A DNA stretch of 64,000 nucleotides. Origin: Thermalbibacter longus (GTDB lineage Bacteria; Chloroflexota; Chloroflexia; Thermomicrobiales; Thermomicrobiaceae). The notes beneath the pieces were generated by a model that was not told where the DNA came from, made no database searches, and saw only the letters and a list, made by a program, of their open reading frames with translations. A program made the translations under genes and the position numbers. The stretch is from the NCBI RefSeq assembly GCF_023806485.1, contig NZ_JAMSLR010000004.1:124001-188000 (forward strand), in the 5' to 3' direction. Below are positions 23,937 through 26,731 of the stretch, in pieces (positions within the stretch are counted from its first letter, which is position 1; the number at the start of each line of letters is the position of its first letter).

Positions 23937-24008
23937 CCGATGCTGTTGGCTGGTCCGGCAGGCTATGAGCCCTGCGCTGCGATCCAGGCTGGAGCGAAGG
24001 GAGCCGAG

Positions 24009-24404
24009 ATGGCCCAGAGGGACAGCAACCAACTGGAGGTGGTCGAAATCTACGTGCACCCGACCTGAACAGGGTGCCGGAAGACTGAGGAGTTCCTCAG
24101 AGAGCAGAGCGTGCCCTATCGTCGTCGGGACTACTTCAGCCAGCGCTTCACACGCGAGGAGCTGGTGGAGCTGCTCCAGCGCACGGGTCTCTCGCCCCGT
24201 GACCTGCTCTCGACGCGCAGCCGGGCCTACCAGGCGCTCGGCCTGGCTGAGCGCGAGGTCAGCGAAGATGAGTTGATCGACCTGATGGTTCAGGAGCCGA
24301 CACTGCTGCGTCGTCCGATCGTTCTCATCGATAACCAGGTTGTGGTCGGTTCGGACCGGAAGCGGCTCGCTGCGGCGCTCCATGGCGCGAGCAGGGTGCG
24401 CTGA
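24009..24404 (+). CDS. ArsC/Spx-like thioredoxin-fold protein, probable selenoprotein (TGA at codon 20)
   Basis: 131 codons from ATG 24009 (AGGGAG five bases upstream). The product begins with strand VVEIYVHPT, then TGA (24066-24068), Thr, Gly, Cys23, Arg, Lys, so the family's CxxCRK redox site becomes UxxCRK if TGA is read as selenocysteine. The frame then continues without a stop: REQSVPYRRRDYF, FTREELVELLQRTGLSPRDL, LLRRPIVLIDNQVVVGSD, all typical of ArsC/Spx/YffB proteins, including the conserved Arg-Arg-Pro-Ile loop. A SECIS-like hairpin follows. No ribosome site supports a restart after TGA (GTG 24111 is 18 bases from the nearest GAGGAG). Alternative: pseudogene by a TGC-to-TGA transversion. 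The reductase substrate (arsenate, a peroxide, a protein disulfide) is unknown. Confidence 0.7.
24066..24100 (+). promoter_or_regulatory. candidate bacterial SECIS element
   Basis: The UGA is followed 16 nt later by CTGAGG (24085-24090), loop AGTT (24091-24094) and CCTCAG (24095-24100). The apical loop starts 22 nt after UGA and has G at its second position, within the known limits for bacterial SECIS hairpins (loop 16-37 nt from UGA, G among the first two loop bases). The stem lies in coding sequence, as in other bacterial selenoprotein genes. Confidence 0.55.
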
Positions 24405-24538
24405 TCGAGAGGCCTGTTGGCAGGAAGCCGGCTACGCTGGTCGCCGCCGTTAGGGGACGGCGAGGATTGCCCTGAGTCCGCTTCCGTTCTTACCGGGCCA
24501 GGTGGGCGATAGGTGTGATGTGTAGGAGGAGTTGGGCA

Positions 24539-25387
24539 GTGCTGTTCGGCGCGCACATGTCGATCGCTGGCGGGTTCGACAAAGCGGTTGACCGCGCAGT
24601 CCAGGTCGGTTGCGACGCGGTGCAGATCTTTACCAAGAGCAGCAACCAGTGGAGGGCGCGTCCTATCGCGCCCGACGAGGTGGAGCGCTTCCGTGCTAGG
24701 CTCCAGGAGGCCGGCATCCGATCGGTGGTCGCGCACGACTCCTACCTTATCAACCTGGCCAGCCCGGACGACCAGCTTTGGGAGAAGTCGATCGCGGCGT
24801 TCCGCGAGGAGCTGGAGCGGTGCGAGCTGCTCGGCATCCCGTACCTGGTCACTCACCCGGGTTCCTGCGGTGAGGCCGGCGAAGAGGCCGGGATCCGCCG
24901 CGTTGCCGAGGCGCTCAACCGGCTGCACGACGACTTGCCGGGCTACCAGGTGAAGACGCTGCTCGAGGTCACGGCCGGCCAGGGTACGAGCCTGGGCTAC
25001 CGCTTCGAGCAGCTCGCGGCAATTACCGAGCGCGTCCGGGAGCCGGAACGGGTGGCCTACTGCTTCGACACCTGCCACGTCTTCGCCGCTGGTTACGAGC
25101 TGCGCACGCCGGAGGGCTATGCCGCTACGATGGAGGAGTTCGACCGCGTTCTCGGGCTCGACCGGCTGCTCGTGTTCCACCTCAACGACTCCAAGCGCGA
25201 CCTCGGCTCGCGCGTCGATCGCCACGAGCACATCGGCAAGGGAAAGATCGGTCTCGACGGCTTTCGCCAACTCGTGAACGACCCCCGCTTCCGCGAGCAT
25301 CCCGCGCTGCTGGAGACCGAGAAGAGCCCGGATCTCCACGAAGATGTCGAGAACCTGCGCGTCTTGCGCAGCCTGGTGGCCGGATAG
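24539..25387 (+). CDS. nfo: endonuclease IV (AP endonuclease)
   Basis: 282 residues. Zinc-dependent AP endonuclease of base-excision repair that cuts 5' to abasic sites. TIM-barrel motifs: FGAHMSIAGG (metal His), VVAHDSYLINLASP, YLVTHPGS, TLLEVTAGQG (metal Glu), CFDTCHVFAAGY and LLVFHLNDSKRDLGSRVDRHEHIGKG, ending ALLETEK. GTG 24539 is the start: GGAGGAG lies seven bases upstream and the N-terminus fits the family. Two further repair genes (Ada/Ogt next door, endonuclease III at 46.8 kb) are in the window. Confidence 0.95.
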   Translation: MLFGAHMSIAGGFDKAVDRAVQVGCDAVQIFTKSSNQWRARPIAPDEVERFRARLQEAGIRSVVAHDSYLINLASPDDQLWEKSIAAFREELERCELLGIPYLVTHPGSCGEAGEEAGIRRVAEALNRLHDDLPGYQVKTLLEVTAGQGTSLGYRFEQLAAITERVREPERVAYCFDTCHVFAAGYELRTPEGYAATMEEFDRVLGLDRLLVFHLNDSKRDLGSRVDRHEHIGKGKIGLDGFRQLVNDPRFREHPALLETEKSPDLHEDVENLRVLRSLVAG

Positions 25388-25498
25388 TATCGCCGCACAG
25401 GCAGCCACTTTTGATGCGCAACCTTCCGATAGCGCTCGCGAGGTCGCCGCGCTAGGCTTCGAGGTGTGAACGGGACGAGGCCTGAGCGAGGTGACACG

Positions 25499-26731
25499 AT
25501 GGCGAGATCGATGCGCGCGTCCGGGACGAGTGTCCCCGCTTCCCGGGAAGCCGGCGACGGGACTGATGAAACGCGCGGTGCGGCTGAAGCCCGGGACATA
25601 ACTGACCAGGCACGCCTGTGGCGCGCGGTGCTGGAGCGAGATCGCCGGTTCGACGGGCGGTTCGTCTTCGCGGTGCGCACCACTGGAATCTACTGCCGGC
25701 CTTCCTGCCCGGCGCGGCGTCCCCGGCGCGAGCATGTCTCGTTCTTTGCTCGTCCCGAGGAGGCGGAGCGCGCCGGCTTCCGGCCATGCCGTCGCTGCCA
25801 CCCCAATCAGGCCAGATTACCCGAACCGAACCTGGAGCTGGTCGCGCGTGTCTGCCGGGCGCTGGAAGAATGGGATGGGGAGTTGCCCACCTTGAAGGAG
25901 CTGGCCCAGCAGTTCGCCGTCAGCCCCTTCCACCTGCATCGCCTGTTCAAGCGGATCACCGGCGTGACGCCGCGCCAGTACGCCGATGCTTGTCGGCAGG
26001 AACGTCTCCGCCGCGAGCTCCGCAGCGGCGACTCGGTGACCGGCGCGCTCTACGGCGCCGGCTACGGTGCGAGCAGCAGCTTGTACGAGGAGGTGGGCAT
26101 GACCCTCGGCATGACGCCCGGGACATATCGGCGAGGCGGTGGCGGCGCCACGATCGTTTACTCGGTGGTGCCATGCCCCCTCGGCTACCTGCTGGTGGCA
26201 GCGACCGAGCGGGGGATCTGCGCCGTCCGGCTGGGCGACTCCGAGCTCGAGCTGGAGGACGCGCTCCGGCGGGAGTTCCCGGCCGGGCAGATCGAGCGCG
26301 ACGAAGCCGCGCTGGGCCGCTGGGTGCGGGAGCTGCTCGACTACCTGGAGGGCAACCAGCCACATCTCGATCTGCCGCTCGACGTCCAGGCCACGGCCTT
26401 CCAGCGCCGGGTCTGGGAGGCACTGCGAGCGATCCCTCGCGGTTCCACTCGTTCCTACCGGCAAGTCGCCGAGGCCATCGGCCAGCCGTCGGCGGCGCGG
26501 GCGGTCGCGCGTGCCTGCGCGGCTAACCCGGTCGCGCTGGTCGTCCCCTGCCACCGGGTGGTGCGCGAGGATGGCGGGCTCGGCGGCTACCGCTGGGGGA
26601 TCGAGCGCAAGAAGGCGCTTCTGCAGCTCGAGCGCCGGGGCAGCGCGCCCGAGCTGGGTGCGTACGACGGGTCGCGCGACCGCCCGCTGGATCACGGCCT
26701 GGCCGGGCTACGGGTCACGCACGAGCGGTAA
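25499..26731 (+). CDS. ada: bifunctional Ada: methylphosphotriester-sensing regulator and O6-methylguanine-DNA methyltransferase
   Basis: 410 residues with all Ada parts in order: N-terminal Zn/methyl-acceptor domain (GIYCRPSCPAR and FRPCRRCHPN, four Cys), AraC helix-turn-helix (LKELAQQFAVSPFHLHRLFK and TPRQYADACR), and the C-terminal alkyltransferase with active-site PCHRVV and the RAVARACAAN loop. It repairs alkylated DNA and, once methylated on the N-terminal Cys, activates the adaptive response. ATG 25499 chosen for its GAGGTG site at seven bases. A 30-residue low-complexity stretch precedes the first domain. The last 24 bases overlap the convergent gene. Confidence 0.95.
   Translation: MARSMRASGTSVPASREAGDGTDETRGAAEARDITDQARLWRAVLERDRRFDGRFVFAVRTTGIYCRPSCPARRPRREHVSFFARPEEAERAGFRPCRRCHPNQARLPEPNLELVARVCRALEEWDGELPTLKELAQQFAVSPFHLHRLFKRITGVTPRQYADACRQERLRRELRSGDSVTGALYGAGYGASSSLYEEVGMTLGMTPGTYRRGGGGATIVYSVVPCPLGYLLVAATERGICAVRLGDSELELEDALRREFPAGQIERDEAALGRWVRELLDYLEGNQPHLDLPLDVQATAFQRRVWEALRAIPRGSTRSYRQVAEAIGQPSAARAVARACAANPVALVVPCHRVVREDGGLGGYRWGIERKKALLQLERRGSAPELGAYDGSRDRPLDHGLAGLRVTHER

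Follow-up and report, generated by a model that had tools for sequence, protein, structure and literature searches.

Comparative evidence for a UxxC selenoprotein of the ArsC/Spx family in Thermalbibacter longus

Described relatives of the protein

Selenoproteins of the ArsC family have been described from environmental sequences. A UxxS arsenate reductase was found in the Sargasso Sea (PMC1088965), and a UxxC protein called "Arsenate reductase 2" (cd03032) was reported from GOS metagenomes in 2008 (PMC2398784). A 2026 review includes NF041106, an ArsC-like UxxC family that it credits to the GOS paper (PMC13188914). The main text of Peng et al. (2016) mentions neither ArsC nor Chloroflexi. Structures are available for two further relatives, Bacillus Spx (PDB 1z3e, 3gfk, and 7f75) and the ArsC of plasmid R773 (PDB 1i9d and 1j9b).

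We analyzed a 64,000-nucleotide stretch, here called the window, of the genome of Thermalbibacter longus, which belongs to the order Thermomicrobiales in the phylum Chloroflexota. It contains a gene that resembles these systems. The predicted protein shares with Arsenate reductase 2 an ArsC/Spx-type thioredoxin fold, a UxxC motif, the same Sec position, and a bacterial SECIS element; cd03032 itself was compared by motif only. It shares with the Sargasso Sea protein its membership in the ArsC family and a Sec in the active-site motif, but that protein is UxxS and lacks the resolving Cys, whereas ours is UxxC. Against NF041106 (ArsC_rel_Se_1) it scores 32.2 bits, below the cut-off of 85, and it is closer to TIGR01617. 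All scores obtained against NF041106, for the tested relatives as well as for ours, lie between 25 and 43 bits. With Spx it has in common the fold, the CxxC position, and the STRS and RRPI motifs, but Spx has Cys in place of the predicted Sec. With R773 ArsC it has in common the fold, the position of the catalytic chalcogen, and Arg94, but ArsC has Ser at the place of its second Cys.

The gene and its active site

The selenoprotein coding sequence was assigned to 24009..24404 (+) from its frame, its family matches, and purifying selection in the genus. It would encode 131 aa with a UxxC site (U20 and C23). The frame from ATG 24009 to TGA 24402-24404 contains a single internal stop, the TGA at codon 20 (24066..24068, +), so the sequence bears out the open frame described in an earlier note on this DNA. 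Read through this codon, the product is MAQRDSNQLEVVEIYVHPT-U-TGCRKTEEF..., with a Sec-Thr-Gly-Cys active site. It matches Pfam ArsC at 3.3e-20 and passes the cut-off of TIGR01617 (NCBIfam arsC_related, Spx/MgsR family) with 86.9 bits against 75.05. The TGA aligns exactly with the first Cys of CxxC, which is invariant, and this alignment and the two family matches confirm its placement at the first active-site Cys. The TGC at codon 23 (24075..24077, +) is invariant in the alignment and encodes the presumed resolving Cys. A Shine-Dalgarno-like AAGGGAG (23997..24003, +) precedes the ATG, and a GAAGG-type purine-rich motif is found 5' of the ATG in three congeners as well.

Selenocysteine machinery

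The assembly that contains the window is 3.6 Mb and 99.9% complete. It encodes selA, selB, selC, and selD, the four genes that the earlier note had named for a genome check. The tRNA-Sec, detected with Rfam as well as with ARAGORN, has the anticodon UCA and scores 75.3 bits. SelA scores 531 bits, and SelB is above its cut-off with 323 bits (346 with a second piece). SelD scores 376 bits (L031, G000:C1:375586-376518). It has an in-frame TGA of its own, in ASCAG*AGKLGP, presumably at the site where known SelD selenoproteins have Sec. A strongly folding stretch lies 3' of the TGA in selD.

Orthologs with TGA or Cys

The ortholog survey covered 61 genomes of the order, including that of T. longus, and 26 contained a match. 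The three other species examined in the genus all have TGA at the codon, as do 12 further genomes (four families). In a 13th further genome, G027, the copy is frameshifted, and its TGA was read by eye. The frameshift in this copy (L059) lies near the active site, at about position 1462, and is probably an assembly error or the mark of a decaying copy. Nine genomes of the order have Cys (TGC or TGT). When the search was widened to 158 genomes in the class, it yielded one more TGA ortholog, in G150 from another family. In the class, TGA is thus found in 17 genomes besides that of T. longus: G001-G004, G006, G007, G009, G010, G012, G021, G023, G028, G030, G032, G042, and G150, plus G027. The TAG in the G006 ortholog is its terminal stop. 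One contig scan used a Cys-containing pattern and thus returned Cys orthologs only. Across the phylum, TGA is also found here in 8 of 10 more distant relatives (L104, L106-L108, and L110-L113). The earlier note had suggested aligning orthologs at this codon, and the alignment has TGA or Cys there.

Either selA or selB was found in every TGA genome of the order, and both are missing from six of the nine Cys genomes (Fisher p = 0.0004; kinship is ignored, and the six include several incomplete drafts). The genomes are related, so their sequences are not independent. The Sec label is not clustered on the tree, where it changes nine times.

Downstream of the TGA, dN/dS is 0.17 to 0.31 in genus pairs, with an excess of third-position changes. 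By this sequence measure, selection there is purifying. Upstream there are only 19 codons; most pairs give 0.18 to 0.46, and the pair L036/L037 is above 1 and uninformative.

The bSECIS hairpin

A candidate bSECIS hairpin was located at 24085..24100 (+) by position, energy, and comparison. It has a 6-bp stem, CTGAGG/CCTCAG, and an AGTT loop at 24091-24094. The gap from the UGA is 16 nt to the stem (24085) and 22 nt to the loop, whose second nucleotide is G. The stem-loop alone has an energy of -7.9 kcal/mol. Published limits for bSECIS elements are a loop of 3 to 9 nt, a stem of 4 to 16 bp, an MFE of -7.5 or lower, G in the first two loop positions, and 16 to 37 nt from the UGA (PMC13188914). 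The window hairpin, with its 4-nt loop and the other values just given, falls within all of them, and its geometry is as the earlier note had given it.

An equally good SECIS-like hairpin appears in 14 to 16% of synonymous reshufflings of the window sequence (p about 0.16), so the hairpin alone proves little and the evidence is comparative. With one TGA sequence per genus from ten genera, the combined synonymous-shuffle p is 8e-6. The Cys control of five orthologs gives p = 0.95. A stem scoring at least 15 with a loop position of 20 to 24 is present in 13 of 16 TGA orthologs versus 0 of 9 Cys orthologs (Fisher p = 1e-4, which, like the test on selA and selB, ignores phylogeny). For two TGA orthologs, L043 and L087, a simple search gave weak SECIS candidates only.

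The hairpins form two structural classes, one with a 4-nt AGTT loop and one with a 3-nt GTA or GTT loop. The classes are one base apart in register, so covariation was counted in each class separately and not in fixed columns over all TGA orthologs. One compensated pair was found in the 4-nt class and two in the 3-nt class. The covariation score of the 4-nt class, which has few changes, was reached by 37 of 500 shuffles. TGA orthologs retain the hairpin, with compensatory changes, and Cys orthologs do not, in agreement with its proposed role as a SECIS.

Selenocysteine or stop

The UGA at codon 20 is almost certainly decoded as selenocysteine, because the genome has the full Sec machinery and the same UGA and kind of hairpin recur in related genomes. 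The comparison strongly supports the selenoprotein reading of the earlier note through the machinery, the TGA and Cys orthologs, and the conserved hairpin. SelB would recognize the hairpin just 3' of the UGA and bring tRNA-Sec(UCA), which would then read the codon.

Any lone in-frame TGA could be a true stop, left by a pseudogene or a sequencing error or followed by a restart at GTG 24111 or 24165. We consider this highly improbable here. The TGA is shared with 17 other genomes of the class and is followed by sequence under purifying selection, and in view of its conservation we reject a pseudogene or sequencing error. The earlier note had held that restarts lack a ribosome site. This is correct for GTG 24111, but GTG 24165 has GAGGAG close by, only 3 nt upstream. 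A start at GTG 24165 would forfeit the active site; every restart forfeits this site and the first strand as well, and we reject internal restart for this loss. A change of genetic code is likewise rejected: the gene itself terminates with TGA, which therefore does not encode an amino acid at every occurrence in the genome.

Predicted function

The AlphaFold model (pLDDT 87) has a thioredoxin fold of the ArsC/Spx type. Its structural matches are nearly tied and include a Bacteroides fragilis ArsC-related protein, Spx, and several ArsC proteins (Z 14 to 15.6; rmsd 2.1 to 3.1 over 113 to 121 residues). The protein is probably a UxxC thioredoxin-fold thiol/selenol oxidoreductase. In this chemistry the Sec20 selenolate would attack an oxidized substrate, Cys23 would resolve the resulting intermediate as a selenenylsulfide, and the protein would be recycled by thioredoxin or glutaredoxin.

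Two more specific roles were weighed against this one. The protein could be a Sec-dependent ArsC-type arsenate reductase in which Sec20 replaces the catalytic Cys12 of R773 ArsC. The Pfam ArsC match, the structural similarity to ArsC (Z about 14), and the conserved R102, equivalent to ArsC Arg94, fit this role. We nevertheless find it unlikely, since ArsC Arg60 is Ser in 19 of 19 aligned sequences and Arg107 has no counterpart in the alignment. With 75 bits against a cut-off of 106, the protein is below the curated ArsC model TIGR00014, and of the three arginines of glutaredoxin-linked ArsC (Arg60, Arg94, and Arg107) it has the equivalent of Arg94 only. No acr3 arsenite exporter was found in the genome (arsB and other exporters were outside the search), and the scanned neighbors include no ars gene.

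It could also work in the manner of Spx, as a redox switch that senses through UxxC and binds to the alpha subunit of RNA polymerase. Its best matches among solved sequences are to Spx, it passes the cut-off of the Spx/MgsR RNA polymerase-binding model TIGR01617, and an STRS-like motif and RRP[IL] are conserved. Spx needs Gly52 for alpha-CTD binding. This position is Ser62 in the window protein and is Ser, Thr, or another residue, never Gly, in the alignment. The protein also fails to reach the cut-off of any Spx-specific model (NF002459, NF009210, and NF009885), and we rate this role as quite unlikely, somewhat below arsenate reduction. A general UxxC oxidoreductase is favored over both because ArsC Arg60 and Arg107 and Spx Gly52 are not kept and acr3 was not found.

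Neighboring genes

The conserved neighbor downstream is nfo, which encodes endonuclease IV (AP_endonuc_2; 24539..25387, +) in the same orientation. Its probable start is GTG 24539, after AGGAGGAG; the listed open reading frame begins at 24515. With this start, 134 nt separate the two genes in the window. In 10 of the 13 regions of the class examined, nfo lies directly 3' of the gene in the same direction. These regions include three same-family genera with TGA and one Cys genome (L102). On the other side of the gene, rmlD is often divergent. The conserved pairing with nfo suggests, from gene order, that the selenoprotein gene is linked with the repair of oxidative DNA damage.

A second DNA-repair gene lies 3' of nfo, at 25466-26731. 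Its product is an O6-methylguanine methyltransferase of the Ada type and carries an AraC domain. Among the regions examined, the order selenoprotein gene, nfo, and Ada is kept in the genus only.

Implications

ArsC-family UxxS and UxxC selenoproteins have already been described, so the window gene adds an example and not a new kind. It falls in a subgroup that current annotation likely misses. It scores below the curated UxxC ArsC model, so annotation pipelines likely truncate or drop the gene in Chloroflexota. The distant Chloroflexota relatives with an active-site TGA number eight, and the four tested are far below the NF041106 cut-off. Their sequences suggest an under-annotated selenoprotein group among these relatives. 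A bolder proposal, which we regard as improbable, is a Chloroflexota-wide Spx-like UxxC subgroup missed by curated models. Its Sec would be a fast-acting redox sensor or reductant and would be tied functionally to base-excision repair via the nfo pair.

The gene adds a clear series of Sec/Cys exchanges in one order, with Cys mostly in genomes in which neither selA nor selB was found. Its conserved neighbor nfo suggests a testable role.
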